From assembly GCA_947502975.1 (NCBI GenBank), contig CANNBV010000007.1, positions 124,001-188,000 of the forward strand: 64,000 nucleotides of DNA. Direction: 5' to 3'. The position numbers were made by a program, and so were the translations under genes. The first letter of the stretch is position 1, and each line of letters begins with the position of its first letter. This document shows, in pieces, positions 3,959 through 53,919 of the stretch. Under the pieces are notes generated by a model. That model had not been told where the DNA came from. It made no database searches and worked only from the letters and a program-made list of their open reading frames with translations. Source of the DNA: an uncultured Flavobacteriaceae bacterium. GTDB lineage: Bacteria > Bacteroidota > Bacteroidia > Flavobacteriales > Flavobacteriaceae.

Positions 3959-4052
3959 GGCGCGATAGGGATTGAACGGCATGTTTGAAATCCCCGACGA
4001 AGGAGGGATTGAGTAGTGAAAGCCCGACCCTGACTTTAGGAAGGGTAACGCC
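3959..4052 (+). repeat. Structured intergenic repeat, scaffold I, copy A
   Basis: One of seven copies in this window of a dispersed palindromic element. It shows box 1 (AGGGATTGAACGGCATG), a variable arm here formed by AATCCC/GGGATT, box 2 (GTGAAAGCCCGACC), a second small arm (CCCT/AGGG) and the closing GGTAACGCC. The 5' closing strand reads GCGCGATA where other copies have GCGTTA, so the outer stem is damaged. It lies between ostA-like and glnII, outside the glnII terminator. Short hypothetical ORFs across it are coding artefacts of the repeat. Confidence 0.75.
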
Positions 4053-4059
4053 ATAAAAC

Positions 4060-4094
4060 AAAAAACGCTTCAAAATAATTTTGAAGCGTTTTTT
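4060..4094. terminator. Intrinsic terminator of glnII
   Basis: A 12-bp perfect stem (AACGCTTCAAAA with its complement) has a 3-nt loop and is flanked by A-runs and T-runs on both sides. It can therefore end transcription in either direction. It sits 26 bp after the glnII stop codon. Confidence 0.85.
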
Positions 4095-4119
4095 CAGATT
4101 TAACTAATTTATTAAGAAT

Positions 4120-5142
4120 TTAAACCTTAGCAGATTTAACAGTTTTAATAATTCTACCAGCAATTTTGTATGGGTCTCCATTAGAAGCAGGTCTTCTGTC
4201 TTCTAACCAACCTTTCCATCCTTTTTCTACAGTAATAATTGGGATACGAATTGATGCACCACGGTCTGATACTCCATAAGAGAAATCTGTGATAGCAGCA
4301 GTTTCATGATCTCCAGTTAAACGTTGGTCGTTAAACTCACCGTAAACAGCGATGTGCTCTTTTACTACTGGGCGGAATGCTTCACAAATAGCTTCGTAAG
4401 TTTCTTTAGAACCACAAGTTCTTAAAGTAGTGTTAGAGAAGTTGGCGTGCATACCAGAACCATTCCAATCCATATCTTTACCTAGAGGTTTTGGATGATA
4501 TTCTATATAGTAACCGTATTTTTCAGTTAAACGGTCTAGTAAATATCTTGCAATCCAAATTTCGTCACCAGCTTTTTTAGCGCCTTTAGCAAACAATTGG
4601 AATTCCCATTGTCCAGAAGCAACTTCTTGGTTAATCCCTTCAAAGTTTAGTCCAGCATCAATACATAAATCTGCATGCTCTTCAACTAAATCTCTACCAT
4701 GAGTATTTTTTCCACCAACAGAACAGTAATACATTCCTTGTGGTGCAGGATAACCACCTACAGGGAAACCTAATGGTAATTGAGTTTTCGTATCCATAAT
4801 AAAATACTCTTGCTCAAAACCAAACCAGAAATCGTTATCATCGTCATCAATAGTAGCTCTTCCATTAGATTCATGAGGCGTTCCATCTGCATTTAAAACC
4901 TCTGTCATTACTAGATATCCATTAATTCTATCAGGATCTGGATAAATAGCTACAGGTTTTAATAAACAATCAGAAGAACCACCTTCTGCTTGTCTTGTAG
5001 ATGATCCATCAAAAGACCACATTCCTAATTCCTCTAATGTACCTTGAAAGTTTTCATGCTCTTCAACCTTAGTCTTACTTCTCAAGTTTTGAGTTGGGAA
5101 GTAACCATCTAACCAAAGGTATTCTAATTTAATTTTAGCCAT
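4120..5142 (-). CDS. glnII: Glutamine synthetase, type II (eukaryote-like)
   Basis: A 340-residue enzyme making glutamine from glutamate, ammonia and ATP in the cytoplasm. The length and motifs are those of the short GSII class: the N-terminal beta-grasp with W-S-F-D-G-S-S-T at 42-49, the Glu-rich metal site F-G-F-E-Q-E-Y at 107-113, Q-W-E-F-Q-L-F at 178-184, and N-G-S-G-M-H-A-N-F-S at 227-236. It is transcribed away from the type III glutamine synthetase, the two sharing a 272-bp spacer. A TATATTTG -7 element lies 40 bp before the start. No adenylylation-loop Tyr of the GSI type is expected in this class. Confidence 0.93.
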   Translation of the reverse strand: MAKIKLEYLWLDGYFPTQNLRSKTKVEEHENFQGTLEELGMWSFDGSSTRQAEGGSSDCLLKPVAIYPDPDRINGYLVMTEVLNADGTPHESNGRATIDDDDNDFWFGFEQEYFIMDTKTQLPLGFPVGGYPAPQGMYYCSVGGKNTHGRDLVEEHADLCIDAGLNFEGINQEVASGQWEFQLFAKGAKKAGDEIWIARYLLDRLTEKYGYYIEYHPKPLGKDMDWNGSGMHANFSNTTLRTCGSKETYEAICEAFRPVVKEHIAVYGEFNDQRLTGDHETAAITDFSYGVSDRGASIRIPIITVEKGWKGWLEDRRPASNGDPYKIAGRIIKTVKSAKV

Positions 5143-5182
5143 AATTATTGATTTATTGGTGTATTATTTTTATTAATCTGAA

Positions 5183-5190
5183 CAAATATA
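5183..5190 (-). promoter_or_regulatory. Bacteroidota-type -7 element of glnII
   Basis: The minus strand reads TATATTTG, a full match to TAnnTTTG, about 41 bp upstream of the glnII ATG. A TTC (not TTG) lies 20 bp further upstream in the -33 position, so the -33 box is imperfect. Confidence 0.5.
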
Positions 5191-5347
5191 ATTTTTTATT
5201 GAGATACTTTGAATTATTAGGGGTGGTTTTCATAAATCACAATGTTATTTTTATTTATACCCTATTTTTTTAAGGTTTATTTTAAAAAAAGTATAGTTTT
5301 TTATATAAATATTGAAATATTGATAACAGCAAAAAGAATATGCTTTA

Positions 5348-5380
5348 TTGGTTTTTGTTTATTCATATAGATTATTTTTG
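5348..5380 (+). promoter_or_regulatory. Promoter of glnN
   Basis: TTG at 5348-5350 and TATTTTTG at 5373-5380 are separated by 22 bp, within the usual 17-23 bp for the Bacteroidota primary sigma factor. Transcription would start near 5387, about 28 nt before the ATG. No sigma-54 type GG/GC pair was seen in this spacer although the gene is a nitrogen gene. Confidence 0.6.
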
Positions 5381-5414
5381 TACTTTAATATTATAAAACT
5401 AAACAAACTAAATA

Positions 5415-7601
5415 ATGGCAATTCTACGATTTCACGCGCTTAAGGAGGCTATAAGTTATAAACCAAATACGTTTATTGAAGAAGGTAAACGTTCGGAGTT
5501 ATTTGGTGTTAATGTATTCAATGAAAATACGATGCGCCAATACCTTACAAGAGACGCTTTTAAAGGGGTGGTGAGTGCTATAGAAGATGGTAAGAAAATT
5601 AATAGAAATGTTGCAGATCAGGTAGCATCTTCAATGAAGGATTGGGCGTTATCTAAAGGTGTAACGCACTATACACACTGGTTTCAACCTTTAACAGGGG
5701 CCACAGCTGAAAAACATGACGCCTTTTTTGAAACGTTAGAAAACGGAAATGCCATCGAAAAGTTTGGAGGTAGTCAGTTAGTACAGCAAGAACCTGATGC
5801 TTCTAGTTTCCCTAGTGGTGGTATTCGTAATACATTTGAAGCTAGAGGTTACACCGCTTGGGATCCTTCTTCTCCTGCATTTATATATGAAACTACACTA
5901 TGTATACCAACTATTTTTGTGGCTTATACTGGGGAAGCTTTAGATTTTAAAACACCCTTGTTGCGAGCATTACACGCCGTTGATGATGCAGCAACTGCAG
6001 TTTGTAAGTATTTTGATAAAAATGTAAACAAGGTGACGTCCTCAATGGGTTGGGAGCAAGAGTATTTTCTAGTTGATAAAAACCTTGTGGCATGCCGACC
6101 AGATATTACCTTAACAGGTAGAACATTGTTAGGCCATTCTTCTGCAAAAGGACAACAGTTGGACGATCATTATTTTGGATCTATTCCCAATAGGGCATTA
6201 AACTTTATGCGTGATTTAGAAAATCAATGTATGCTCTTGGGAATTCCTGCGAAAACACGACATAACGAAGTAGCTCCAAATCAATTTGAAATAGCGCCGA
6301 TTCACGAAGAAGCCAATTTAGCAGTAGATCATAACTCATTACTTATGGATGTTATGGGGCGCGTGGCGTCTCGCCATAATCTAAAAGTATTGTTGCACGA
6401 AAAACCATTTGCTAACATTAATGGTTCAGGAAAACACAATAATTGGTCCTTATCAACTAATACTGGAATTAACTTATTAAAACCAGGAAAAACACCAATG
6501 AGTAACCTTCAGTTTTTAACCTTCTTTATTAATACAATTAAGGCAGTATACGAAAATGAGGAGCTGCTAAGAGCATCAATAGCATCAGCGAGTAATGATC
6601 ATAGATTGGGTGCAAACGAGGCGCCGCCAGCAATAATTTCAGTATTTATTGGAGAGCAGCTTACTAAAGTGTTACAAGAATTAGAAGGTGTTACAAAAGG
6701 GAAGTTGTCACCCCAAGAAAAAACCGACTTAAAATTAAATGTAGTTGGAAAAATACCAGATGTACTTCTAGATAATACAGATAGGAATAGAACGTCTCCA
6801 TTTGCATTTACAGGTAATAAATTCGAGTTTAGAGCTGTAGGCTCTATGGAAAACTGTGGAAACCCAATGATGGTTTTAAATACCATTGTGGCTAAGCAAC
6901 TAAAGGAATTTAAAAAAGAAGTAGATGTGCTTGTTGATGGTAAAGATTTTAAGAAAGATGAAGCCATATTTAATGTATTGCGCGAATACATAAAAGCCTC
7001 AAAAGATATTTTATTTGAAGGCAATGGATATGGAGAAGCATGGGAAAAGGAAGCAAAATCTAGAGGCTTGAGTAACAACAAAACTACGCCAGAAGCATTA
7101 AAAGTAAAGCTACATAAAAGCACTATTAGCTTGTTTGATGAAATGAATGTAATGAGTAAAGTCGAATCAGAGGCGCGTTATGAAGTAGGTATGGAAGCCT
7201 ATATTAACCACATACAAATTGAGAGTCGTGTGCTAGGTGATATTGCGAGAAACCACATCGTACCAACTGCGGTTAAATATCAAAACATTCTTATAGAAAA
7301 TGTAAAAGGCTTAAAAGAAATTTATCAAAAAGAATATACAGATTTGGCTAAAGAGCAATTGAATCTTATCAAGGCTATTTCTGCGCACATCGATGGTATA
7401 AATAGTAATGTTACCAAAATGATTGATGAACGCAAAAATGCAAATCAATTAGAGGACGTTACAAATAAAGCTGAGGCCTATTGCGATAGTGTAAAACCAT
7501 TTTTAAGCGATATACGTTACCATTGCGATAAACTGGAATTGTTAGTGGATGACGAGCTTTGGCCTTTAACTAAATATAGAGAGTTACTGTTTATTAGATA
7601 A
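5415..7601 (+). CDS. glnN: Glutamine synthetase, type III
   Basis: A 728-residue dodecameric GSIII, the long class common in Bacteroidota. Recognisable blocks are the N-terminal H-Y-T-H-W-F-Q-P-L-T-G family signature, the metal site W-E-Q-E-Y-F-L near 213-219, H-N-E-V-A-P-N-Q-F-E-I-A-P, N-G-S-G-K-H-N-N-W-S in place of the N-G-S-G-x-H motif of GSI/II, and N-R-T-S-P-F-A-F-T-G-N-K-F-E-F-R for ATP binding. The reaction is the same as that of the neighbouring GSII, so the organism carries two non-homologous-length enzymes back to back. It has its own upstream promoter, and scaffold-I repeat copy B lies just after the stop. Confidence 0.95.
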   Translation: MAILRFHALKEAISYKPNTFIEEGKRSELFGVNVFNENTMRQYLTRDAFKGVVSAIEDGKKINRNVADQVASSMKDWALSKGVTHYTHWFQPLTGATAEKHDAFFETLENGNAIEKFGGSQLVQQEPDASSFPSGGIRNTFEARGYTAWDPSSPAFIYETTLCIPTIFVAYTGEALDFKTPLLRALHAVDDAATAVCKYFDKNVNKVTSSMGWEQEYFLVDKNLVACRPDITLTGRTLLGHSSAKGQQLDDHYFGSIPNRALNFMRDLENQCMLLGIPAKTRHNEVAPNQFEIAPIHEEANLAVDHNSLLMDVMGRVASRHNLKVLLHEKPFANINGSGKHNNWSLSTNTGINLLKPGKTPMSNLQFLTFFINTIKAVYENEELLRASIASASNDHRLGANEAPPAIISVFIGEQLTKVLQELEGVTKGKLSPQEKTDLKLNVVGKIPDVLLDNTDRNRTSPFAFTGNKFEFRAVGSMENCGNPMMVLNTIVAKQLKEFKKEVDVLVDGKDFKKDEAIFNVLREYIKASKDILFEGNGYGEAWEKEAKSRGLSNNKTTPEALKVKLHKSTISLFDEMNVMSKVESEARYEVGMEAYINHIQIESRVLGDIARNHIVPTAVKYQNILIENVKGLKEIYQKEYTDLAKEQLNLIKAISAHIDGINSNVTKMIDERKNANQLEDVTNKAEAYCDSVKPFLSDIRYHCDKLELLVDDELWPLTKYRELLFIR

Positions 7602-7610
7602 TTCTTGTTT

Positions 7611-7692
7611 GGGCGTTACCCTAAAGGGTCGGGCTTTCCACTATATCTTTTTCTCGTGCCTCAAAAAAGGATGCCGCTGCAATCCCTAACGC
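7611..7692 (-). repeat. Structured intergenic repeat, scaffold I, copy B
   Basis: Read on the minus strand it gives GCGTTAGGGATTG, the box-1 GCGGCATCC, a T-rich/A-rich hairpin arm, box 2 AGTGGAAAGCCCGACC, a compact ACCCT/AGGGT arm and closing TAACGCCC. The outer stem GCGTTA/TAACGC is perfect. Positions 7633-7677 match copy E (42372-42416) at 44 of 45 bases although copy E has the other scaffold. It starts 10 bp after glnN ends. Confidence 0.8.
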
Positions 7693-7728
7693 AGGTGTAT
7701 TTGTTGGCTTTTCGTTTTTTTATTCAGT

Positions 7729-8127
7729 TTATATCTCCGCTTTTATTTCAGTCAGTTTTTTGAATCGGTAGTATCCAAAAATTCCAATAATCATTAACAG
7801 AATTGCAGTAAAATTGATATCTAATGGTAATTCAGCCGAATTAATACTGAATTTAGTTTGAGACCGTAAAACATATCCATATCTAAAGTTATTAAAAACT
7901 AATTCCGTTCCCAATATTTGAATTCCGTAAAAAATTATAGTTCCAATGTATCCATAAATATTATTTTTAAACAACAGGATTAAAAGTCCAATAGAAATAA
8001 TTGTTCCTCCAATTATGTAGATATTGTTATTGGCTCCCATATCATATATAAAATAGCAGTAAATCATAAATAGAATATTGATAATACTGATAAAGGCAAT
8101 TGTAATTCCGTAAATATTTTTTTTCAT
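7729..8127 (-). CDS. Small integral membrane protein, unknown function
   Basis: 132 residues with four clear hydrophobic helices, at about 6-30, 37-52, 55-76 and 102-122, short charged loops, and a K-K-L-T-E-I-K tail. I do not recognise the family. It sits alone between repeat copy B and the divergent purM-like gene and has no operon partner. The use of ATT-CCG and GGT-ATT pairs differs slightly from neighbours, but this is too weak to claim transfer. Confidence 0.6.
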   Translation of the reverse strand: MKKNIYGITIAFISIINILFMIYCYFIYDMGANNNIYIIGGTIISIGLLILLFKNNIYGYIGTIIFYGIQILGTELVFNNFRYGYVLRSQTKFSINSAELPLDINFTAILLMIIGIFGYYRFKKLTEIKAEI

Positions 8128-8160
8128 ACAGTTTGGTAAATGAAGGTTAATGTAGAGACA

Positions 8161-8198
8161 TGGTTCCGTTTTAATAAACTAAAACGCATTTTGAACCA
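8161..8198. repeat. Nested inverted repeat in the purM upstream region
   Basis: Outer arms TGGTTC and GAACCA enclose inner arms CGTTTTA and TAAAACG around a 6-nt loop, with a 6-nt asymmetry on the right side. There is no T-tract, so it is not an obvious terminator. It may be an operator or mRNA leader structure for either divergent gene. Confidence 0.4.
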
Positions 8199-8354
8199 AG
8201 TTATCATTTTTTTCTAATAAAATAAAACTGTGCTACAGGAAGAAATCAAAAATCGAATTCGGTTAAAAAACCGTTAATAAAACCTACTTCATAATAACTT
8301 TAAAAGCTCATAATCTTTAAAATATTCCTTTTCTTTGTAGCATAAATCGGCATT

Positions 8355-9533
8355 ATGAGTCAAGAAGTTTCAAAACGTTATGCACAACGCGGTGTTTCTG
8401 CATCTAAAGAAGATGTACATAACGCTATTAAGAATATAGATAAAGGATTATTTCCAAAGGCATTTTGTAAAATTGTACCAGATTATTTAACCAATGATGA
8501 TGCCTATTGTTTGATTATGCATGCCGATGGCGCAGGTACAAAATCTTCGTTAGCATACATGTATTGGAAAGAAACTGGAGATGTTTCTGTTTGGAAAGGT
8601 ATAGCCCAAGATGCTTTAATAATGAATATTGACGATTTATTATGTGTAGGCGCTACAGATAACATCATGTTATCATCAACTATTGGTAGAAATAAAAACT
8701 TAATTCCTGGTGAAGTCCTTTCAGCTATAATTAATGGTACAGAAGAGTTGGTTGAAGATTTAAAATCGTTTGGAGTTACCATCCATTCTACAGGAGGGGA
8801 GACTGCTGATGTTGGTGATTTAGTGAGAACCATTATTGTAGATTCTACAGTTACTGCCAGAATGAAGCGTAGCGATGTTATAGATAACGCCAATATAAAA
8901 GCTGGTGATGTTATCGTTGGTTTGGAATCGTTCGGAAAAGCATCGTACGAGACAGATTATAATGGAGGTATGGGGAGTAATGGCTTAACATCAGCACGAC
9001 ATGATGTATTTCATAACTATTTAGCAGAAAAATATCCAGAAAGTTTTGATGCTGCTGTTCCTCAGGATTTAGTATATTCTGGAAATGTAAAATTGACTGA
9101 TGTTGTTGAGAATGCACCAATTGATGCTGGGAAATTAGTGTTGTCTCCCACACGTACTTATGCACCAATTATTAAGGCCATATTATCAAAATATAAAAGT
9201 GATGTAGTGCATGGAATGATACATTGCTCTGGAGGTGCACAAACTAAAATTCTTCATTTTGTAGATAAGTTGCATATTATAAAAGATAATATGTTTCCAA
9301 TTCCACCATTATTCAAACTTATACAAGAACAATCAAAAACCGATTGGAAAGAAATGTATCAAGTATTTAATTGTGGGCATCGTATGGAGCTGTATGTATC
9401 CCCAGAAATAGCAGAAGATTTGATTGAAATCTCTGAATCTTTTAATGTAAATGCAAAAATAATTGGTAGGGTAGAATCATCATCAAAAAAAGAACTCACA
9501 ATAAAAAGTGAGTTTGGAGAGTTTACATATTAA
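8355..9533 (+). CDS. purM: Phosphoribosylformylglycinamidine cyclo-ligase (AIR synthase family)
   Basis: A 392-residue ATP-dependent enzyme that closes the imidazole ring of AIR in purine synthesis. The PurM fold is marked by H-A-D-G-A-G-T-K-S near residues 56-64, N-I-D-D-L-L-C-V-G-A near 95-104, and G-G-E-T-A-D-V-G near 142-149. The product is about 45 residues longer than the E. coli enzyme and lacks its exact N-terminal substrate motif, as is usual for Bacteroidota proteins annotated only as AIR synthase related. It is a monocistronic gene; a degenerate -7 element (TTTCTTTG) lies just upstream. purC is present at 42.5 kb, so purine genes are scattered here. Confidence 0.85.
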   Translation: MSQEVSKRYAQRGVSASKEDVHNAIKNIDKGLFPKAFCKIVPDYLTNDDAYCLIMHADGAGTKSSLAYMYWKETGDVSVWKGIAQDALIMNIDDLLCVGATDNIMLSSTIGRNKNLIPGEVLSAIINGTEELVEDLKSFGVTIHSTGGETADVGDLVRTIIVDSTVTARMKRSDVIDNANIKAGDVIVGLESFGKASYETDYNGGMGSNGLTSARHDVFHNYLAEKYPESFDAAVPQDLVYSGNVKLTDVVENAPIDAGKLVLSPTRTYAPIIKAILSKYKSDVVHGMIHCSGGAQTKILHFVDKLHIIKDNMFPIPPLFKLIQEQSKTDWKEMYQVFNCGHRMELYVSPEIAEDLIEISESFNVNAKIIGRVESSSKKELTIKSEFGEFTY

Positions 9534-9616
9534 ATTTCTACATAAAATTATAAAAATGGAATAGTTTTTGTGATTAAGAGAAATTTAAAAACAACCTAAC
9601 TTAATCCAAATAATAA

Positions 9617-10663
9617 ATGAGCACTCCCAAAAGTTCGTTATTAAAAAAAATATTAGACCGCTTGTTAATTACGAAATTAGAACAGAAAACGCCTAATAGA
9701 GTTAAAAACTTATTATTAGCATTAATCTTTTTACTTATTTGTGTTGCTGCATTTGCACAGCCAGACTCTCTTTATTTAAAAGAAAAAAAAGTATACGATG
9801 GGCCGCAATGGAAACAAAAGCAAAAGGCAAGTATAGACTTAAGTCAAGTAAGTTTTACGAATTGGAATGCTGGTGGTACAAACTCAATTTCTGCCTTGTT
9901 AGGGTATCAATATACAGCCAATTACAAGGATAAGTTTTTCTTCTGGAATAATGGTGTTCGTGTTGGATATGGTGTTAACAAGCAAGAAAGTAGAGAGATA
10001 CGTAAAACAGATGATATTTTCGAAATTACGTCTAATCTAGGTTATCAGCCCACATCAGATTCTAAATGGTTTTATTCTGCACGTCTTAATTTTAAAACCC
10101 AAATAGCTAATGGTTATAAATATCCTGATACTGATAATCCAATTTCAAGATTGATGGCTCCTGGTTACCTGTTTTTTGGTGGAGGAATGGAATATGGTAA
10201 AAACATAGAGGAATTATCATTTTATGCGTCACCATTAACACTTAAGGCTACTTTTGTACTAGATCAAGACTTGGCTAATGCTGGTGCTTTTGGTGTAGAT
10301 CCAGCAATTTTAGATGAGAATGGCATTATAATACGGGAAGGAAGTAATATCCGTAGAGAGGTAGGCATACTTGTAACAAATAGTTATGCTATGGAGCTTG
10401 CTAAAAACATTAAAGCTACAAATTTACTTAGTGTGTATACCGACTATATCAATAACTTTGGAAATGTAGATGTAGATTGGAGAGTAAACTTCGACTTTAA
10501 AGTAAATAGCTTTGTACGTGCCACATTAGAATCTCATTTAAGATACGACGATGATGTTAAAACTCTGGAACCTTCAGCTACTACAGAAGGTGAGTTTGAT
10601 GAGGCTGGTGCCAAAATACAATGGAAGCAATTTTTAGGGATTGGATTTGCTGTAGACTTTTAA
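9617..10663 (+). CDS. DUF3078 outer-membrane beta-rich protein
   Basis: 348 residues. A hydrophobic segment at about 34-48 (L-L-L-A-L-I-F-L-L-I-C-V-A-A-F-A-Q) acts as a signal peptide after an unusually long basic N-terminus; an internal start is possible but no better Met is present. The mature part has the family hallmark W-K-Q-K-Q-K-A-S-I-D-L-S-Q-V-S-F-T-N-W followed by N-A-G-G-T-N-S and many alternating aromatic/polar strands ending in a terminal Phe (F-A-V-D-F), typical of an outer-membrane beta barrel. Function unknown. Eighty-three bases separate it from purM. Confidence 0.8.
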   Translation: MSTPKSSLLKKILDRLLITKLEQKTPNRVKNLLLALIFLLICVAAFAQPDSLYLKEKKVYDGPQWKQKQKASIDLSQVSFTNWNAGGTNSISALLGYQYTANYKDKFFFWNNGVRVGYGVNKQESREIRKTDDIFEITSNLGYQPTSDSKWFYSARLNFKTQIANGYKYPDTDNPISRLMAPGYLFFGGGMEYGKNIEELSFYASPLTLKATFVLDQDLANAGAFGVDPAILDENGIIIREGSNIRREVGILVTNSYAMELAKNIKATNLLSVYTDYINNFGNVDVDWRVNFDFKVNSFVRATLESHLRYDDDVKTLEPSATTEGEFDEAGAKIQWKQFLGIGFAVDF

Positions 10664-10670
10664 AAAATAT

Positions 10671-10698
10671 TACTAGGACAGTTTTAGCTGTCCTAGTA
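10671..10698. terminator. Hairpin after the DUF3078 gene
   Basis: Perfect 11-bp stem TACTAGGACAG/CTGTCCTAGTA with a 6-nt loop, 8 bp after the stop codon. It lacks a downstream T-tract, so it may be an RNA-stabilising 3' structure rather than a classic terminator. Confidence 0.6.
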
Positions 10699-11054: not shown

Positions 11055-11083
11055 TTGATTTTTAGGTTTTTGATCTATTTTTG
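11055..11083 (+). promoter_or_regulatory. Promoter of nrdJ
   Basis: TTG at 11055-11057 and TATTTTTG at 11076-11083 with an 18-bp spacer fit the Bacteroidota consensus. The start site would be near 11090, giving a leader of about 95 nt. Confidence 0.55.
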
Positions 11084-11093
11084 TTGCCAACTT

Positions 11094-17519: not shown

Positions 17520-17589
17520 TTTTCTTAATTCTTAAACTTTATAGAATAAAAAATTAGTTTACTCAATTGCTGTTGTAGGCAGATAGGAC

Positions 17590-17673
17590 CGCGTTAGGGA
17601 TTGTAGAGGAAAGCCCACAGCGAGGTACGAGCGAGGACTTGGAACGGAAAGCGCGACCCGTAGGGGAACGCCC
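17590..17673 (+). repeat. Structured intergenic repeat, scaffold I, copy C (degenerate)
   Basis: CGCGTTAGGGATTG at the 5' side, a divergent arm region, then CGGAAAGCGCGACCCG and GGGGAACGCCC at the 3' side. Box 2 has GCGCG where the consensus has GCCCG, and the closing strand reads GAACGC instead of TAACGC, so this looks like a decaying copy. Confidence 0.65.
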
Positions 17674-17705
17674 AAATAAAAATTAAATATAAAAGTGTAT
17701 ACAGT

Positions 17706-20715: not shown

Positions 20716-20790
20716 GGTGGTTGTAGCTCAGTTGGTTAGAGCATTGGTTTGTGGTACCAAGGGTCGCCGGTTCGAATCCGGTCTTCCACC
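20716..20790 (+). tRNA. tRNA-His (anticodon GTG)
   Basis: Cloverleaf with D-stem GCTC/GAGC, anticodon stem TTGGT/ACCAA around loop TTGTGGT (anticodon GTG), and T-arm GCCGG-TTCGAAT-CCGGT. The extra 5' G opposite C73 that identifies tRNA-His is encoded at 20716. CCA is not fully encoded. In the acceptor stem, positions 5:68 and 6:67 are both T opposite T, so the lower stem is weaker than usual. Confidence 0.93.
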
Positions 20791-20797
20791 CAAAAAT

Positions 20798-20830
20798 AAA
20801 AGCCTTTCAAGAAATTGAAAGGCTTTTTTT
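20798..20830. terminator. Terminator of the tRNA-His gene
   Basis: AGCCTTTCAA / TTGAAAGGCT, a 10-bp stem with a GAAA tetraloop, followed by a run of seven T. A-run on the other side also allows it to end the converging peptidase gene. Confidence 0.88.
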
Positions 20831-20847
20831 GTAACTATAAATCGGCT

Positions 20848-34402: not shown

Positions 34403-34553
34403 AGTGAAACTCAATTTTAAGAAGTCTGCAAGACGAACTTAAAATTGTAAGTTGAATTAATCCCAATTTTTAGCGGGATTAAAAGCTTACCTTAATCCCT
34501 CCAAAGGAGGGAAACACTCAAAACGGTAACATGAGTTTTTAAAAGTATTATTT

Positions 34554-34677
34554 GGGCGTTACCCCGCTTGTTCGCTGAGGTGGTTGCTGAGTTTATCGAA
34601 GTGCTCTCGAAGCGCGGTCGGGCTTTCACTAGTCGCTCTCTGCGAGGAGCTCCAACATGCCGTTCAATCCCTAACGC
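34554..34677 (-). repeat. Structured intergenic repeat, scaffold I, copy D (enlarged)
   Basis: On the minus strand: GCGTTAGGGATTGAACGGCATG, an arm around GGAGCTCC, AGTGAAAGCCCGACC, then an enlarged second arm CCGC...GCGGGG carrying a TTCGATAAACTCAG segment, and TAACGCCC. The outer stem is perfect. Positions 34631-34657 are identical over 27 bp to copy F (48669-48695), which has the other scaffold. Confidence 0.8.
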
Positions 34678-34740
34678 GGGGGGTGTTTGCCAGCCTAAGA
34701 TTTTAAGATAAAAGTAGTTTTGTTTTTGGATAGGTTTTCG

Positions 34741-42353: not shown

Positions 42354-42430
42354 TTTTAGAAGCTATTTCCCGCTTTCCGCTATATCTTTTTCTCGTGCCT
42401 CAAAAAAGGATGCCGCATCAATCGGGGCTA
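42354..42430 (-). repeat. Structured intergenic repeat, scaffold II, copy E
   Basis: On the minus strand: CTAGCCCCGATTGATGCGGC, then the same hairpin arm as copy B, then AGCGGAAAGCGGGAAATAGC. The closing stem here is CTA/TAG plus CCCG/CGGG and there is no second arm. It begins right after phoH. Confidence 0.8.
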
Positions 42431-42462
42431 GAGAGCAGAACATTAAATAATATTATTGCAAA

Positions 42463-47255: not shown

Positions 47256-47282
47256 AAAACTAACTACACTAAATTGATATAA

Positions 47283-48617
47283 ATGACAACAAGAAGAAAT
47301 TTTATAAAGAATACCGCAATGGGTGCTGCAGGAGTAACACTGTTAAGTAGTTCCAGTGCCTATGCCAATATCTTGGGAGCTAATGATAGTGTTAATTTTG
47401 CAATTCTAGGATGTGGAGGCAGAGCACATGGATTAGTAAAAGCAGTAGCTGCATCTAAGCAAGGAAAAGTAGTAGCTATTTGTGATGTAGACGCTAACAG
47501 ATTAGATAAGTTTAAAATATTTTGTAAAAAAGAAATAAATACATCCCCAAAAACTGAAAGTGATTTTAGAAAACTTTTGGCAGATAAGGATATAGATGCC
47601 ATTATAGTGGCAACACCAGAACATTGGCATGCACCTATGGCTATAATGGGAATGCAAGCAGGGAAACATGTATATGTAGAAAAACCATGTAGTCACAATC
47701 CACATGAAAATGAATTATTGGTGCAAGTCCAGAAGAAATATAACAAAGTATGCCAAATGGGAAACCAACAGCGTTCTTCTAGAACTTCTGCTATAGCTGT
47801 AAATGATATAAAAGATGGTATTATAGGTGACGTATACGCTGCAAAAGCTGTTTATGCGAATGCAAGAAAGTCGATTGGAGTTGGTAAAGTAGTTCCTGTA
47901 CCAGACACCTTAGATTGGGATTTATGGCAAGGACCGGCTCCTAGAGAAGTCTACAGAGATAATGTACACCCTTATAATTGGCATTGGTTTAGAACTTGGG
48001 GTACTGGAGAAATTCATAATAACGGCACACATGAAATTGATATTTGTCGTTGGGCACTAGGCGTTGATTATCCAACAAGAGTAGTATCAACAGGAGGTAG
48101 ACTACATTATACAAATGACGATTGGGAGTGGTTTGATACACAAATGGTAAATTATGAATTTGATGGAGGCAAGCTACTAACTTGGGATGGAAGAAGTTGT
48201 AATGCATTTAAGTCTATTGGAGGTAGAGGTGCTGTAATATATGGAACCAAAGGTAGTATTCATCTAGATAGAGCAAAATATGAATTATTTAATTTGGGTG
48301 GTAAAACCATTAAAACTCAATTTGAAAACGAGAAGAAAGAAACTAAAGCCAATAAAACTTCCGATACTGTTGGTTTTGATGGGTTAACTGTAACTCATAT
48401 GCAAAATTTTATAAACGCTATCGTAAAAGGTGAAACTTTAAACGCTCCAATAGCTGAAGCAGCAATTTCAACACAATTATGTCATTTAGGCAATATTGCT
48501 CAAGATTTAAAAGAAAGCCTTAATGTAGACGCCAACACAGGTCGTGTGTTACACAATAAAGGTGCAGATATGCTTTGGAAACGTACTTATGAAAAAGGTT
48601 GGGAGCCAACCTTATAA
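47283..48617 (+). CDS. Gfo/Idh/MocA family oxidoreductase with Tat-like signal
   Basis: 444 residues. The start T-T-R-R-N-F-I-K is a twin-arginine signal followed by a hydrophobic Ala-rich stretch. Then a Rossmann domain (I-L-G-C-G-G-R-A) for NAD(P), and the family's E-K-P motif as Y-V-E-K-P-C-S near residues 135-141, with the usual His in H-N-N-G-T-H-E-I-D near 247-255. It would oxidise or reduce a sugar hydroxyl while folded before export. Co-transcribed with the DUF1080 gene. Confidence 0.92.
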   Translation: MTTRRNFIKNTAMGAAGVTLLSSSSAYANILGANDSVNFAILGCGGRAHGLVKAVAASKQGKVVAICDVDANRLDKFKIFCKKEINTSPKTESDFRKLLADKDIDAIIVATPEHWHAPMAIMGMQAGKHVYVEKPCSHNPHENELLVQVQKKYNKVCQMGNQQRSSRTSAIAVNDIKDGIIGDVYAAKAVYANARKSIGVGKVVPVPDTLDWDLWQGPAPREVYRDNVHPYNWHWFRTWGTGEIHNNGTHEIDICRWALGVDYPTRVVSTGGRLHYTNDDWEWFDTQMVNYEFDGGKLLTWDGRSCNAFKSIGGRGAVIYGTKGSIHLDRAKYELFNLGGKTIKTQFENEKKETKANKTSDTVGFDGLTVTHMQNFINAIVKGETLNAPIAEAAISTQLCHLGNIAQDLKESLNVDANTGRVLHNKGADMLWKRTYEKGWEPTL

Positions 48618-48640
48618 GGCGGATAGATTTATAATTAATT

Positions 48641-48714
48641 TTTTTAGAAGCTATTTCCCGCTTTCGGCAGTCGCTCTCTGCGAGGAGCTCCAACAAATGC
48701 CTCAATCGGGGCTA
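48641..48714 (-). repeat. Structured intergenic repeat, scaffold II, copy F
   Basis: On the minus strand: CTAGCCCCGATTGAGGCATT, the arm shared with copy D (27 bp identical), then GCCGAAAGCGGGAAATAGC. The first 20 bp of the plus strand after the T-run match copy E. It lies between two converging genes. Confidence 0.8.
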
Positions 48715-48731
48715 GGGGTTTAGGCTACATT

Positions 48732-51149
48732 TTACAACTTAGAAAAACCAACAATAAGTTCACCTTTGTTGGTTTTTCCTAATAGTTTACCAGCGAAATT
48801 TTTATCAGTAAATCCATGCCCAGAACCATCAAAAATTAATACGATATTACTCCCCTTTTTTTTAGTTTTTAGGAGAGTACAGCCTTTACCATAATTAACA
48901 ACTTCTGATGCGCCATATTTTAAAGTAGAAAAATCAATATCCTTTTGCGCATCAAAACCATTTTCAGAATACATTAAAATTTTGATTTTTTTTGTCTTGG
49001 ATGTTATAAAGGTTTTATTCAAAAGTTTAACGCGTTTATGCTTCAAAAGCGGTACGATAATGTTTTTAGAATTATGATTATCATTTGAATAGTCATCGCG
49101 CTTCGGAACATCCAAAGCAGCCAAAGACAGGTGGGTTGCTCTGCCATATGCATCTTGTAGTATATGCGGACGTTCTAACTTGTACCAATGCGTTTTTGTA
49201 CCATCCTCATACTGCGTAATATAAGGATCATAAGCTATACCAGGATCAAATTTCCAATGTATGCCATCAGGCGAACGTAAATATATAGCACGTTTATCAA
49301 GAAATGCATTGATAATGCAATGATATTGAACCTCGTCTTTCCACATTACAGGATCTTCATAGTTACTTTTTCTGTAGCGTTCTGGGATACTTTTGTTTTT
49401 TTGTATAACATCAGTTAGTACTTTATAAGGGCCTAAAAGCCCCTTAGTGCTTTTAATCATTCTACCAAATTTGGATACAAATAACATGCTACCATCTTCA
49501 AGTTGAACACCAGATAAATTGCGCTGTACTTGATATTCTCTATTATCATTAAGTTTTTCAGCGTTGTACTCTATTTTCATTACCCCTTCTTTTTGCCAAG
49601 GACCGCTCATAGAATTTGAAGTAAACAGTATAGGTTCCCAGTCAATCAAAGAATACAACAAGTACCTTCCATCATTTAATTGTGTAACATCTGCATTATG
49701 CCCTTTACTATTTGAAAAGTCATATACCTTATCATTTTTAACTTTATAAGGCCCAGTAGGTGTTTCAGACATTGTGTGGACTACAGTAGAATTTGGCCAT
49801 TCCCAATGGCCTTTTAACCCATCTTCAGGCCAACGTACAACAAGCATGTGATATTTACCATCTTTACCTTGAATTGGCCGTCCTCCCCAATAGGACCATT
49901 TTGGATGTTCAATACCATTATTGGTATCTCTTGGTATTACACTTTTGTCACCCCATGTATCAGTTGTCATGCTTTTGTATATAGGTATCGGTGCAATTAA
50001 ATCCCGAAAAGAAGCACCGTAAACGGTTTTTACTTTGGCATTAACAAATTCAGAAGCGTTACTTTTATTACCACTAAAATCATGCGTATACACTATATAC
50101 GTATGTTCAATCTCTTTATCAGGCAATAAGTCTTCATAAGAATTTGACTTAATATTATTTGCGATTTCTATCCTATTTTTTTCCTCAGAATTGAAACGAT
50201 GTAGAGAGTAGTGGGAAATATCATTTTCTATATTTTTCTTCCATGTAATTTTTATTTCGGTATCAAAATTTATAGTTGAAACTTCAATCGGTGCACTTGG
50301 TGGAATTGTATCTTTTTTTACTGTTGAAATAATATTTGATGACGCTGATTCTTTTTTATTGGCACGAGTAACTAAATATTTATACCTAACTCCATTAATA
50401 ATTGTGGTATCTAAGAACTGAGTGTTTTTTGACTTTCCAACTTTAGTGAATCCTTGTTTTTTGTTAGACGATCTGTAAATATTAAAAATAATGTTTTCAT
50501 CTATGTCATCGTCCCACGATAACATAATACCATCATCAGAAATGTTACTTTTTAAATTAACAGGCCCAGCATTTATATCTGTAAGGACAGAAATATTTAC
50601 ATAGTGTAAATAGACTTTGACATCTTGTTCTGAATAAAATTTTACCCTAATAAATGGTAATCCTGACTTTGCATCTTCGTTGGTGATTACATAAAAGCCT
50701 TTAAAATGTTCTACAGTTTTATCTTGGCCAATAAGCTTTACGTTTTTAGCAAGTATGCGCTCATAGTCACCAAATACCAAGCTAAAAGACATTGTACTTT
50801 TACTATTATACTCTAAATCTGCACCAAAGCTCCATTTTAAGGTGTCTCCAATCTTCGGTTGTTGGTATTCTGAATTTGTATTTAATATTTTAGACTCTGC
50901 AATTCCAATAGTATTACTGCTAAAAAGCGAGCCATAATGTAGTCCCATAGGTTCATTACCTACAATACTTTTTGTGGTCCAGAATGGTGATTGACTAGCA
51001 TTTCGCCAATAATCCCAAACTGTAGAGAAGTCGCCATCATTAACATTTTTATGTGGAGGGTTTTCACCAATTAAAACAATTTGTGAATGAATTTTAGTGA
51101 AACTAAAAATAAACCCGATAATGAAAATGAAAGATACACTCTGCTTCAT
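48732..51149 (-). CDS. Exported glycoside-hydrolase-like protein with FN3 modules
   Basis: 805 residues. Signal peptide to about residue 22 (F-T-K-I-H-S-Q). Residues about 23-190 look like a carbohydrate-binding beta-sandwich (W-D-Y-W-R-N-A-S-Q-S-P-F-W). Two fibronectin type III-like modules follow at about 195-375 (I-M-L-S-W-D-D-D; E-I-K-W-type I-K-I-T-W-K-K-N). The last 420 residues have the repeating blades of a five-bladed propeller like GH43/GH117-type enzymes (Y-W-G-G-R-P-I-Q-G-K-D-G; N-Y-E-D-P-V-M-W). The substrate and exact family are not certain. It faces the DUF1080/Gfo genes tail to tail and has a 20-bp perfect palindrome upstream. Confidence 0.75.
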   Translation of the reverse strand: MKQSVSFIFIIGFIFSFTKIHSQIVLIGENPPHKNVNDGDFSTVWDYWRNASQSPFWTTKSIVGNEPMGLHYGSLFSSNTIGIAESKILNTNSEYQQPKIGDTLKWSFGADLEYNSKSTMSFSLVFGDYERILAKNVKLIGQDKTVEHFKGFYVITNEDAKSGLPFIRVKFYSEQDVKVYLHYVNISVLTDINAGPVNLKSNISDDGIMLSWDDDIDENIIFNIYRSSNKKQGFTKVGKSKNTQFLDTTIINGVRYKYLVTRANKKESASSNIISTVKKDTIPPSAPIEVSTINFDTEIKITWKKNIENDISHYSLHRFNSEEKNRIEIANNIKSNSYEDLLPDKEIEHTYIVYTHDFSGNKSNASEFVNAKVKTVYGASFRDLIAPIPIYKSMTTDTWGDKSVIPRDTNNGIEHPKWSYWGGRPIQGKDGKYHMLVVRWPEDGLKGHWEWPNSTVVHTMSETPTGPYKVKNDKVYDFSNSKGHNADVTQLNDGRYLLYSLIDWEPILFTSNSMSGPWQKEGVMKIEYNAEKLNDNREYQVQRNLSGVQLEDGSMLFVSKFGRMIKSTKGLLGPYKVLTDVIQKNKSIPERYRKSNYEDPVMWKDEVQYHCIINAFLDKRAIYLRSPDGIHWKFDPGIAYDPYITQYEDGTKTHWYKLERPHILQDAYGRATHLSLAALDVPKRDDYSNDNHNSKNIIVPLLKHKRVKLLNKTFITSKTKKIKILMYSENGFDAQKDIDFSTLKYGASEVVNYGKGCTLLKTKKKGSNIVLIFDGSGHGFTDKNFAGKLLGKTNKGELIVGFSKL

Positions 51150-51174
51150 AGTGATAATTAAATGTAGAGACTAA

Positions 51175-51194
51175 ATATACCAATATTGGTATAT
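51175..51194. promoter_or_regulatory. Perfect 20-bp palindrome upstream of the hydrolase-like gene
   Basis: ATATACCAATATTGGTATAT is fully self-complementary and lies 26 bp before the ATG of the gene at 48732-51149. Its length and place fit an operator for a dimeric repressor such as a LacI or GntR type. No other copy was seen in the window. Confidence 0.55.
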
Positions 51195-51318
51195 AGTTAA
51201 AGGTGACAAATGATTTAAATTTAGTTTTAGCAATTATATATTAGTGTTAGTCAAAACAAAATTATTTTCAATGAAAACACAAAAACTATACGATCTTGAG
51301 TTTTTAAAAAAAGTAGTA

Positions 51319-51684
51319 TTACTTTTTTCGAGATTTACTGGCCTTGGCTAATGGATTGAATGCTAAACATAAATCAATCCAATAGCTTAAATCGTTGTCA
51401 GTATCGAAACCTTCTGGTGTTACAAAAATATACCCTCGCATAGGGCGACCTGTAAAATCCATAGGAAGACATTCAGGCTTCTCAAGTTCTTTTTCATATG
51501 TATCTAAACCTATGCGTGCCATAAGTAAACTATCTCCATATTTTTTATCAATATGAATACCACAAAGCATTTTGTTATCTACTTTAAAACATAAGCCTCC
51601 CATCATTTTCAGCTCAGAAAAATTGATGTGCTTTTCTTTTAAGTTTCGTCTTATTCGGTCTGCTAAATACTCGTCATAAGCCAT
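51319..51684 (-). CDS. TfoX/Sxy N-terminal domain protein
   Basis: 121 residues matching only the N-terminal half of competence regulator TfoX: M-M-G-G-L-C-F-K-V near 27-35, L-L-M-A-R-I-G near 53-59 and M-R-G-Y-I-F-V near 81-87. Stand-alone members of this size are common and are not known to control competence. A basic tail (K-A-S-K-S-R-K-K) ends the protein. Monocistronic. Confidence 0.85.
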   Translation of the reverse strand: MAYDEYLADRIRRNLKEKHINFSELKMMGGLCFKVDNKMLCGIHIDKKYGDSLLMARIGLDTYEKELEKPECLPMDFTGRPMRGYIFVTPEGFDTDNDLSYWIDLCLAFNPLAKASKSRKK

Positions 51685-51768
51685 ATGTTTCTTATTTATG
51701 ATAGCTGGTTTTTCAAATATATTGAAAATTGATGTTATATTGTGTCCTCAACTAAACACCAAACATAA

Positions 51769-52026
51769 ATGCCTAATAAAAAAAATGCTTCGGCATATTG
51801 GAAAGAAAACATCAGATACTTATTTCTTCTTTTACTCATATGGTTTCTAGTGTCCTTTGGAGCCGGAGTTTTATTTAAAGATGCTTTAAACACAATTAAA
51901 ATAGGAGGCTTTAAACTGGGGTTTTGGTTTGCGCAACAAGGCTCTATGTATGTATTTGTAATATTAATTTTTGTGTACGTACGGTTAATGAATAAACTTG
52001 ATAAAAAGTATGGTTATGATGTTTAG
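51769..52026 (+). CDS. DUF4212 small subunit of a sodium:solute symporter
   Basis: 85 residues, two membrane helices (about 15-38 and 53-73) with the family signature W-F-L-V-S-F-G-A-G-V-L-F and F-W-F-A-Q-Q-G-S. These small proteins are found just before VC_2705-type symporters, as here, where the symporter gene overlaps its end. Probably an accessory membrane subunit. Confidence 0.9.
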   Translation: MPNKKNASAYWKENIRYLFLLLLIWFLVSFGAGVLFKDALNTIKIGGFKLGFWFAQQGSMYVFVILIFVYVRLMNKLDKKYGYDV

Positions 52027-53797
52027 TTTATTAATTAAAGAGGGTATAGGCGTTCAAAATTGGACATACATTTTAGTAGGTGTTACATTTGCTATTTACA
52101 TAGGTATCGCTATATGGTCTAGAGCAAGTTCTACAAAAGAATTTTATGTTGCAGGAGGAGGTGTTTCGCCTCTGGCAAATGGAATGGCTACAGCCGCAGA
52201 TTGGATGAGTGCAGCGTCTTTTATTTCTATGGCTGGTATTATTTCTTTTGCAGGATACGATGGCGCGGTTTATTTAATGGGTTGGACTGGTGGTTATGTG
52301 TTATTAGCACTACTGTTAGCTCCTTATTTAAGAAAATTTGGAAAGTTTACCGTACCAGATTTTATAGGTGATAGATATTATTCTAAAACTGCACGTTTTG
52401 TTGCAGTTTTATGTGCACTTTTAGTGTCCTTTACTTATGTAGCAGGACAAATGCGTGGTGTTGGCATTGTATTTTCTAGATTTTTAGAAGTTGATATAAA
52501 TACAGGTGTTATTATAGGAATGCTTATCGTTTTATTTTATGCCGTTTTAGGAGGCATGAAAGGTATTACATATACACAAGTTGCACAATATTGCGTGTTG
52601 ATTTTTGCGTTTATGGTACCTGCAATTTTTATTTCGATTCAAATGACAGGAAACCCGATACCACAATTAGGATTTGGTGATACCTTGTCGGATGGATCTG
52701 GAACATATTTACTAGATAAATTAGACGGGTTAAGTACAGAATTAGGTTTTGATAAATATACCGAAGGCTCAAAGTCTACCATAGATATTTTTGCTATAAC
52801 ACTCGCTTTGATGGTAGGAACAGCTGGACTACCACACGTTATTGTTCGATTTTTTACAGTGAAACGTGTTAAGGATGCGCGTAAATCGGCTGGAATTGCT
52901 TTGTTACTTATCGTTATTTTATATGCAACTGCACCAGCTGTTGCTGCTTTTGCTAGAACTAATTTAATTGAAACGGTTTCTAATCAGCCTTATAGGAATG
53001 TACCTGAATGGTTTAGTAAATGGGAGGAAACTAAGTTGATAAGCTTTACAGATAAGAACAATGATGGATTAATTCAATATGTAAAGGGTGATGCTTATTT
53101 AAAAGGCGAAGATGGAAAATTTGATTTTGAGCGTCCTAACCTCAGTACAACTAACGAACTTTATGTTGACAGAGATATTATGGTATTGGCAAATCCAGAA
53201 ATTGCAACATTACCAGATTGGGTAATTGCATTGGTTGCTGCAGGAGGATTAGCTGCTGCATTATCTACAGCAGCTGGTTTACTGTTGGTGATTTCATCTT
53301 CTGTATCTCATGATTTGATTAAAAAAATTATTAAGCCTTCAATTTCTGAAAAAGGAGAATTAGTAGCAGCACGCTTATCGGCTGTTGGTGCAGTTTGTGT
53401 TGCAGGCTATTTTGGTATTAATCCACCAGGATTTGTAGCAGCTGTAGTGGCCTTGGCTTTTGGATTAGCTGCGGCATCATTTTTTCCTGCTATTATTTTA
53501 GGGATTTTTTATAAACGGATGAATAAAGAAGGTGCCATTGCAGGTATGGTGGTAGGTATTACGGCAATGTTACTTTATATGATGAAATACAAGTTAGGAT
53601 GGTTTGATGAAACGCTTCCTGATAAAAGTGAATGGTGGTTTGGTATTTCACCTGAAGGTTTTGGAACGGTTGCTATGGTTTTGAATTTTGTAGTATCTGT
53701 GGTGATTATGAAGTTTACGCCAGCACCACCAGAGAATGTTCAGGAAATTGTTGAAAATATAAGAATACCAAGCGGGGCAGGAGAAGCTACGCACTAG
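52016..53797 (+). CDS. Sodium:solute symporter (SSS family, acetate/monocarboxylate type)
   Basis: About 593 residues. In-frame ATGs lie at 51998, 52010, 52016 and 52019; 52016 is chosen because it gives a short overlap with the DUF4212 gene. About 13 helices with the SSS core G-G-V-S-P-L-A-N-G-M-A-T-A-A-D-W and T-A-G-L-P-H-V-I-V-R-F. An external loop at about 325-385 carries D-K-N-N-D-G-L-I-Q, a calcium-loop-like stretch that I believe is normal in this subfamily. The next gene is acs, so the substrate is probably acetate or a similar short acid. Confidence 0.9.
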   Translation: MMFSLLIKEGIGVQNWTYILVGVTFAIYIGIAIWSRASSTKEFYVAGGGVSPLANGMATAADWMSAASFISMAGIISFAGYDGAVYLMGWTGGYVLLALLLAPYLRKFGKFTVPDFIGDRYYSKTARFVAVLCALLVSFTYVAGQMRGVGIVFSRFLEVDINTGVIIGMLIVLFYAVLGGMKGITYTQVAQYCVLIFAFMVPAIFISIQMTGNPIPQLGFGDTLSDGSGTYLLDKLDGLSTELGFDKYTEGSKSTIDIFAITLALMVGTAGLPHVIVRFFTVKRVKDARKSAGIALLLIVILYATAPAVAAFARTNLIETVSNQPYRNVPEWFSKWEETKLISFTDKNNDGLIQYVKGDAYLKGEDGKFDFERPNLSTTNELYVDRDIMVLANPEIATLPDWVIALVAAGGLAAALSTAAGLLLVISSSVSHDLIKKIIKPSISEKGELVAARLSAVGAVCVAGYFGINPPGFVAAVVALAFGLAAASFFPAIILGIFYKRMNKEGAIAGMVVGITAMLLYMMKYKLGWFDETLPDKSEWWFGISPEGFGTVAMVLNFVVSVVIMKFTPAPPENVQEIVENIRIPSGAGEATH

Positions 53798-53825
53798 TTT
53801 TATAAACTGACTTTGGCAGGCACGT

Positions 53826-53919
53826 GCGTTAGGGATTGTAGCGGCAGCTTTTGGCGAGGCGTGCATCGAGCCAAAACTATTAGCGGAAAGCCCGACCACG
53901 CCATAGCGTGGTAACGCCC
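53826..53919 (+). repeat. Structured intergenic repeat, scaffold I, copy G
   Basis: GCGTTAGGGATTGTAGCGGC, arm AGCTTTTGG/CCAAAACT, AGCGGAAAGCCCGACC, arm CCACGC/GCGTGG, and TAACGCCC. It is the most regular copy: outer stem, inner GGG/CCC stem and both arms all pair. Its arms are unlike those of the other copies. It lies between the symporter gene and acs. Confidence 0.82.

Follow-up and report, generated by a model that had tools for sequence, protein, structure and literature searches.

Flavo-1-like elements of Flavobacteriaceae: a probable dispersed repeat family folded from one strand

The 64,000-nucleotide stretch of contig CANNBV010000007.1 (positions 124,001 to 188,000; assembly GCA_947502975.1) from an uncultured Flavobacteriaceae bacterium, in the following called the window, was found to carry seven copies of a structured element, here called Flavo-1 in a wide sense, which is approximately 75–190 nt long and occurs in two scaffold types. 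The letters of the window bear out the seven copies and the stems that an initial annotation had claimed from the sequence alone. Five copies are of scaffold I: 3956–4056 (plus strand; outer stem GCGATA/TAACGC with one mismatch), 7608–7698 (minus strand; complete, with outer stem, core, arm 1 and arm 2), 17585–17676 (plus; arm 1 divergent, right side CGC), 34551–34683 (minus; long arm 2) and 53820–53922 (plus). The two scaffold II copies were found at 42354–42437 and 48641–48717 (both minus). All seven are intergenic, as annotated, with genes being predicted throughout this study by a simple open reading frame (ORF) finder and without annotation; four copies are located in convergent spacers, three in co-directional and none in divergent ones. 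The claim that copies mostly follow directly on a stop codon holds for four of them, which start 4–29 nt past an upstream stop (42354, 7611, 48641, and 53826), and fails for the other three, where the nearest 3′ end of a gene is 68 (3959), 71 (17590), and 158 nt (34554) away.

Scaffold II was identified as the Rfam family RF01705 (Flavo-1) proper, the full model of which is matched by the first scaffold II copy at 42362–42433 (62.8 bits). The sequence family is thus already described; the initial annotation was correct in that no function had been described, and had missed that the family itself is on record. The Rfam cut-off (42 bits) was reached by two of the seven copies, the second being 7608–7698 (46.1 bits at 7623–7700), and two more matched below it, namely 53820–53922 (35.3 bits at 53811–53901) and 48641–48717 (25.4 bits at 48650–48717). 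The remaining three were not listed at an expect value (E) ≤ 1 in the Rfam search of the window, one of them (17585–17676) scoring 21.9 bits in the whole-genome search. In the host genome, Rfam Flavo-1 gave 67 matches at E ≤ 1, 35 of which were above the cut-off.

In the available text of the original description, Flavo-1 is presented as a probable RNA of Bacteroidetes that is not cis-regulatory (Weinberg et al., 2010; PMC2864571). A transcriptome study of F. psychrophilum reports, in the portion accessible to us, several 5′ regions that coincide with Flavo-1 matches, the matches seemingly being sense or antisense alike and many of them lying outside transcribed regions (PMC9723704), and a review from 2022 includes Flavo-1 and, in its available part, gives no function (PMC9029176). 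The literature searched on Bacteroidetes RAYT genes, miniature inverted-repeat transposable elements (MITEs) of Flavobacteriaceae and repeats of flavobacteria or Tenacibaculum contained, PMC12306157 included, in the portions that could be accessed and with subscription journals mostly outside the search, no description of Flavo-1 as mobile. The present analysis adds four points to this record, namely the extended scaffold, its strand polarity, a turnover of copies among congeneric species and evidence that speaks against a resident Y1 transposase.

A covariance model (R1) was built from an alignment of 73 copies (A1), most of them from other genera and obtained by an exact-pattern scan of public contigs, together with copies from the host genome and Aureivirga. 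From 106 candidates, 27 copies longer than 112 nt and six near-duplicates or copies with uncertain ends (L087, L094, L104, L117, L126, and L208) were left out. R1 recovered six of the seven window copies with E from 2e-22 to 4e-6, the next-best match in the window having an E of 0.21. The copies at 7608–7698 (95.5 bits; L032) and 53820–53922 (75.4 bits) are members of the R1 seed and match by construction, and the other four scored 32.8 bits (3956–4056; E 3e-6), 43.5 bits (17585–17676; E 5e-9), 32.5 bits (34551–34683; E 4e-6), and 47.3 bits (42354–42437). The copy at 48641–48714 was not among the 16 matches of R1 in the window (E up to 10); it is supported because its inner 48 nt (48660–48707), a sequence-conserved arm, recur with 80–100% identity in 16 of 40 genomes, including the host, among the matches listed.

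In its general form the element is a long irregular hairpin, the core of which consists of conserved symmetric G/A-rich internal loops below an apical arm 1 that varies; scaffold I additionally has a side arm 2, also variable, and an outer stem closes the element. In A1, the outer stem of scaffold I reads 5′ GCGTTA/TAACGC 3′ and the inner stem consists of GGG, an A-G mismatch and TT/AA, followed inward by a 3 × 3 loop (GNA/GGA), a two-base stem and a second 3 × 3 loop. Arm 1 has a T-run/A-run at its base; after it come GACC, then side arm 2, and finally the box GCCCAAA on the 3′ side. The core pairing, the A-G mismatch, the two symmetric 3 × 3 loops and the apical stem are as in the Rfam consensus, whereas the outer stem and side arm of scaffold I, which form a three-way junction, are absent from the 76-position Rfam model, the outer stem aligning to an insertion and unpaired ends in the Rfam alignment.

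RNAalifold predicted 23 pairs on A1, of which 19 showed double changes. Pairing had been proposed to be under selection because both sides of a stem changed together, and the covariation test strongly supported this: 106 double-changed cells were found compared to 17.1 ± 3.9 in shuffled alignments, 98.2% of cells were paired compared to 90.2%, and none of 500 shuffles was as high on any of five measures. When partners were slid by 1–3 columns, only 5 to 16 double-changed cells were obtained. Since the scan pattern had fixed parts of the core, the independent evidence of covariation is that provided by the outer stem, the two-base stem and the bases of the arms. The outer stem showed double changes at all five pairs with 96.7% of cells paired, its variants including GGCTTA/GAAGCT, GCATTA/AATGC, GCGCTA/TAGCGC, GCGCAA/TTGCGC, and GAGTTA/AACTTC. 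In scaffold I, conservation begins abruptly at GCGTTA, preceded in the host genome by a weaker CCC, and has its other end at GCCCAAA; in scaffold II, analyzed in Tenacibaculum only, it extends from CCTAGCCCC to about TAGCTTCAAA. With ends this sharp, the copies do not look like parts of a longer insertion sequence, and no longer insertion sequence was seen around them. Four host-genome copies (L013, L022, L027, and L030) were 140–152 nt long by Rfam match, and their arm 1 holds what appears to be another palindromic repeat (like GGATTCCTGCC...GGAATG), that is, repeats within repeats.

Mismatch polarity indicated which strand folds. At the two-base stem of 138 unique copies, pair 22/77 was G.T in 8 and A.C in 1, and pair 23/76 was T.G in 9 and C.A in 0, giving a total of 17 vs. 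1 (binomial p = 1.4e-4, an optimistic value as the copies are related). This polarity persisted (7 vs. 0) when only the 56 copies with a sense strand antisense to the two neighboring genes were counted. Over all 23 pairs of A1 there were 27 G.U compared to 6 A.C cells, 14 of the 27 being located at a single arm pair. The folding strand is thus the one that reads GGGATTG...GAAAGCCC, because G.T exceeds A.C, also where this strand is antisense to both neighbors. A cruciform in double-stranded DNA, considered as a candidate, is disfavored by this polarity. The sense strand was more stable than the antisense strand in 58 of the 73 copies with DNA energies (p = 5e-9) and in 41 of 73 with RNA energies (p = 0.08), and therefore either an RNA or a single-stranded DNA form may be involved.

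Copy numbers were high. As 150 candidates were scored per genome, all of them are lower bounds. The host genome (4.55 Mb, 36 contigs) contained at least 103 copies by R1 at E ≤ 1e-6. A scan of Bacteroidota genomes with covariance models had been suggested to follow up the initial annotation, and R1 found copies in all 12 genomes of the host genus (at least 103, 69, 67, 64, 50, 47, 40, 39, 29, 18, 9, and 8 at the same threshold). With the Flavo-1 model, at least 54 copies were detected in T. piscium, 122 in T. finnmarkense and 42 in Algibacter luteus (E ≤ 1e-7), and at least 80 in Aureivirga sp. CE67 and 30 in A. marina (E ≤ 0.01); two of the 14 genomes in the Flavo-1 search of the T. piscium and Algibacter set contained no copies. 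The exact-pattern scan of public contigs gave at least 117 stretches, 80 of which were taken as loci, nearly all of them from Flavobacteriaceae or from Flavobacteriales/Bacteroidetes metagenome-assembled genomes (MAGs) according to their titles, besides one MAG of Crocinitomix, one record of Pedobacter and one labeled Glaciecola. In the latter (CP034120.1, labeled Glaciecola amylolytica; L162), the copy is located beside RHS-type genes that look like those of Bacteroidota, suggesting either a mislabeled record or a transfer. Phage carriage was considered as well, three stretches in the IMG/VR collection matching the element. Copies were also seen within 800 nt of contig starts, as if beside a repeat that breaks the assembly: four in A. 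marina (G041 contigs C3, C20, C25, and C26) and eight in T. finnmarkense (G099 contigs C6, C13, C14, C24, C33, C46, C48, and C53).

Comparison of congeneric species showed differences in occupancy. Four occupied spacers in Aureivirga sp. CE67 (331, 281, 234, and 185 nt) corresponded to empty ones in A. marina (35, 40, 56, and 30 nt). Among 34 pattern-found copies of CE67, five sites were common to A. marina on both flanks and two on one flank; besides these seven, the four empty sites and two copies bounding a 3.15-kb stretch, the rest were not comparable, the counterpart being absent or unaligned. No copies present in A. marina only were seen among the compared stretches. In Tenacibaculum, where the comparison used Rfam coordinates, three occupied spacers of T. 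finnmarkense (255, 245, and 376 nt; C15 205727, 314949, and 307946) faced empty ones in T. piscium (22, −4, and 80 nt), and at least six sites were common to both species. The most similar copy was found within the same species for 31 of 39 CE67 and 13 of 16 A. marina copies (pattern-caught copies in fetched stretches), and 26 T. piscium copies that were examined were mostly visibly alike. Spread and turnover of copies thus appear to be shown by these sequence comparisons of congeneric species.

The 3.15-kb stretch in CE67 (G040 contig C15, L241 5340–8490) contains three genes (encoding 306 aa, 157 aa and an AraC-like protein of 346 aa) between near-identical direct Flavo-1 copies; it is absent from A. 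marina, where no copy remains, and may be a composite insertion. An autonomous transposon bounded by two copies was rejected as a general arrangement: among the pairs of copies at most 4.5 kb apart, those in L064–L066, read by eye, enclose differing metabolic and other cellular genes, none of them common. The remaining pairs were judged by ORF lengths only, and the CE67 stretch was kept as a lead. Breakpoints at the ends of the element were likewise rejected, as the GCGTTA end, where some of the alignments break off, is also the point at which the similarity of genes ceases. Another dispersed repeat, the ends of which are inverted (GAGCCTGTTTAAA...TTTAAACAGGCTC), was observed near Flavo-1 copies in Tenacibaculum (L348, L350, and L417, and L395–L414 in the C15 stretch of T. 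finnmarkense) and differs between T. finnmarkense and T. piscium. In CE67 (G040 contig C1, L233 10795–10862 and 10628–10744), a Flavo-1 copy is adjoined by at least one other short repeat, for which A. marina gave many matches.

The position of copies relative to genes was analyzed with a fuzzy-pattern finder that detected four of the seven window copies and few Tenacibaculum copies, so that the tables of context and neighbors undercount. In spacers between tandem genes, 56 unique copies were opposed to the genes and 30 had the same orientation (p = 0.007). The possibility raised in the initial annotation that the element is a 3′ RNA structure of the neighboring gene is thus not supported, the folding strand being antisense to both tandem neighbors in 56 of 86 unique copies, with the G.T polarity kept. 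Nor did the copies show the fixed orientation or position to one gene class that marks a cis-regulatory RNA. In CE67, convergent spacers were over-represented (10/29 vs. 26/175 in the background; p = 0.017) and divergent spacers under-represented (1/29 vs. 36/175; p = 0.034). The 80 mixed contig loci showed no spacer preference (convergent 6/71 vs. 48/295, p = 0.13, in the reverse direction; divergent 12/71 vs. 61/295, p = 0.51), and in the host genome 1/29 copies were found in divergent spacers compared to 8/46 in the background (p = 0.14). Proteins encoded beside copies formed many small clusters, of which the 15 largest, read by eye, were orthologous cellular genes.

One site was found to be occupied across genera. 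By the search used, 12 of 60 genomes of the family contain thiC, and in four of these an element is located antisense behind it; in the other eight no element was found and thiE follows within approximately 125 nt. Together with L117 (A. marina), L129 (labeled Polaribacter) and L153 (labeled Cellulophaga), seven genomes of at least four genera carry a thiC-thiE element, the site in genome G072 reading like that of CE67. In six of the seven copies the outer stem is GAGTT/AACTT (with one G.U pair), a stem not seen elsewhere in A1; the remaining copy has GGGTT/AACCC. Arms 1 and 2 differ in sequence while largely remaining paired. Double changes were found at 5 of 23 pairs (9 of 500 shuffles as high), with 9 double-changed cells compared to 3.3 in shuffles (0 of 500), in an alignment that was fitted to the model and leans towards its structure; the number of pair types was not above that of shuffles (439/500). 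Pairing has thus been renewed at this site, and therefore the resident copies were either selected for folding or renewed by conversion from other copies.

The initial annotation had suggested a REP-like (repetitive extragenic palindromic) element moved in trans by a Y1-type transposase. Its first part is supported by the copy numbers, the occupied and empty spacers and the covariation, while movement by a Y1 enzyme is not supported. A search of 30 genomes with Y1_Tnp (PF01797; E ≤ 0.001) gave no match in ten, several of them drafts in which a gene may have been missed; by different models and cut-offs, these ten contained 64 (G003), 18 (G011), 3 (G013), 0 (G020), 2 (G023), 30 (G041), 54 (G043), 3 (G045), 42 (G046), and 10 (G047) copies. 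None of 30 Y1 loci (approximately 1.5 kb on each side; further Y1 matches were without a locus) carried the element, the sole match of R1 (13 bits, E 0.66) being in L001. The sole Y1 gene found in CE67 (C46:126945) is located approximately 1.7 kb from a copy (C46:128837), just outside its locus, which with 80 copies in 4.8 Mb may be due to chance. The host genome contains two RAYT-like genes (187 aa and 190 aa; motifs YIHQNP and YIHNNP), which resemble subclass 2.6 as far as this is described in the available text of Quentin et al. (2018; PMC6006769), according to which “atypical secondary structures” flank Bacteroidetes genes of this subclass. The 187-aa gene (L001 1261–2030) has flanking palindromes of its own (CACACGAAAGGATTCGTGCGGTAGC and a close variant of it) and represents another, distinct REP-like system of the host genome; these palindromes differ from Flavo-1 and show GTAG on one side only.

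On balance, we consider it probable that these elements constitute one dispersed, non-autonomous REP/MITE-like repeat family of Flavobacteriaceae, Flavo-1 in a wide sense, which is recognized as one folded strand by a trans-acting partner. The element would reach its sites, most of them intergenic, by being copied or moved, and would do so in both orientations, transposition itself being inferred. The feature under selection is the folding of one strand in particular, as covariation and G.T polarity show; with a one-strand fold selected, a protein most likely recognizes that strand in a single-stranded form, as either DNA or RNA. Judging from the searches above, this protein would act in trans and in many hosts would not be a resident Y1/RAYT transposase. 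Some copies, kept at the same spacer in several genera with pairing renewed in place, may be under selection or repeatedly converted. A more specific version, considered possible at best, is that Flavo-1, catalogued over 16 years as a candidate small RNA, is a long-lived REPIN-like mobile population of the family, which is propagated via a folded single strand by a trans-acting enzyme other than a Y1 (HuH) transposase and partly kept by the host for a role in place.

Several observations weigh against the family being a mobile repeat recognized as one strand. No mobilizing factor was found in the Y1 searches or the neighbor clusters, the 15 largest of which included no transposase-like family. 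The occupied spacers differ from the empty ones in more sequence than the element, so that ends and target duplication are unreadable and deletions may explain some of the differences; in Tenacibaculum, two of three occupied spacers also hold part of another repeat. Clustering by species was weak in Tenacibaculum, the most similar copy being within the species for only 13 of the 23 copies of T. piscium and 20 of the 37 of T. finnmarkense, again among pattern-caught copies in fetched stretches. The polarity at the two-base stem represents few independent events, and a C-to-T bias on the sense strand could account for part of it. Of 176 pattern-found copies in four sets, 22 overlap an ORF (≥90 aa, putative genes) and 11 are located at the edge of a locus. 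In both Aureivirga genomes the strand of the element went with the local GC skew (summed 13/5 vs. 8/26; p = 0.001), and renewal in place, as at thiC-thiE, would not be expected if the repeat were purely selfish and decaying.

This last point, together with the G-U polarity and symmetric G/A-rich loops that fit an RNA, speaks for the reading of 2010, in which Flavo-1 is a functional structured RNA acting in situ, as a sense-strand non-coding RNA or an RNA-protein binding site, and in which the authors, in the text available, class it as a probable RNA (PMC2864571). We regard such a role as unlikely, since at least 54 to at least 122 copies per genome of 2.6–2.8 Mb and presence or absence among congeners are ungenelike, tandem copies are opposed to their genes nearly twice as often as aligned with them, RNA energies barely separate the strands, and matches in F. 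psychrophilum, in the accessible part of that study, show no strand preference and often lie outside transcribed regions (PMC9723704). Improbable, too, is a classical MITE, in which a DDE transposase would cut and paste a remnant via terminal inverted repeats and the fold would be a by-product. Short, dispersed, non-autonomous copies with a closing stem at their ends would suit it, as would the MITE-like family with ends GAGCCTGTTTAAA adjoining copies in Tenacibaculum; however, the closing stem varies yet stays paired, contrary to what a recognized terminal repeat would do, conservation resides in the core, mismatched loops included, a polarity of 17 vs. 1 is unexpected under double-stranded recognition, and target duplications were not seen in spacers too diverged to resolve them.

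Movement of a REP or REPIN on the lagging-strand template by a resident Y1 (HuH) transposase of the RAYT or IS200 type would account for a one-strand fold, high copy number and mostly intergenic position, and the skew agreement in Aureivirga, the Y1 gene near a copy in CE67 and the structures noted beside subclass 2.6 genes in the available text of PMC6006769 are in its favor. This explanation is nevertheless largely refuted and very improbable, as genomes with many copies (G003, G043, G046, and G041) gave no Y1_Tnp match, no Y1 locus carried the element, the gene in L001 being flanked by a different palindrome, and the host genome showed no strand bias, its contigs C1 (7 plus, 10 minus) and C2 (11 plus, 11 minus) being mixed. 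No claim is made of a replication-strand bias, as the agreement in Aureivirga is set against these mixed strands, GC skew in the host genome tracks the coding strand, and the agreement was weak in the contig loci with 4-kb flanks (p = 0.14). Hardly credible, finally, is that the copies are old elements only, with inherited positions and with species differences due to losses without recent movement. Several sites are common to congeners and some to different genera, the occupied and empty sites are few with unalignable spacers, and the closest copy is within the species only about half the time in Tenacibaculum; against this, congeners differ from at least 122 to at least 54 and from at least 80 to at least 30 copies, arm types cluster by species in Aureivirga, and the examined T. 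piscium copies are mostly alike.

As a probable mobile repeat recognized as one folded strand, Flavo-1 shares with MITEs that it is short, non-autonomous and dispersed, apparently mostly between genes, and differs in that its ends form a covarying stem and not sequence-conserved inverted repeats. Integron attC sites have the outer boxes 5′ RYYYAAC...GTTRRRY 3′, whereas the Flavo-1 outer stem on inspection reads 5′ GTTA...TAAC 3′ on both strands and varies freely. REP hairpins are simple and carry a 5′ GTAG/GGAG tag; Flavo-1, by contrast, is a 23-pair branched fold without a constant tag at its foot. For REP, the tag is given as GT[AG]G in the available text of PMC6006769. With REP/REPIN and RAYT systems the family has in common many short, folded, apparently mostly intergenic copies, a one-strand fold and a copy number that varies among relatives, and it differs in that no Y1 gene flanked by Flavo-1 copies was found among the 30 Y1 loci.

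Elsewhere in the window, the region 20717–20832 comprises its sole tRNA gene (His) and, behind it, a hairpin that is AT-rich and has a T run; the weak match of an unrelated Rfam family to this region is at chance level.

Rfam types Flavo-1 as a small RNA gene, whereas here it behaves as a dispersed repeat, and if the family is mobile, many such “RNA genes” in a genus would be repeats and an enzyme handling a branched single-strand fold would be yet to be discovered. With the congeneric pairs compared above, the movement and its agent become directly testable. If mobile, the copies should be treated as repeats in genome comparisons of Flavobacteriaceae, including those of fish pathogens.

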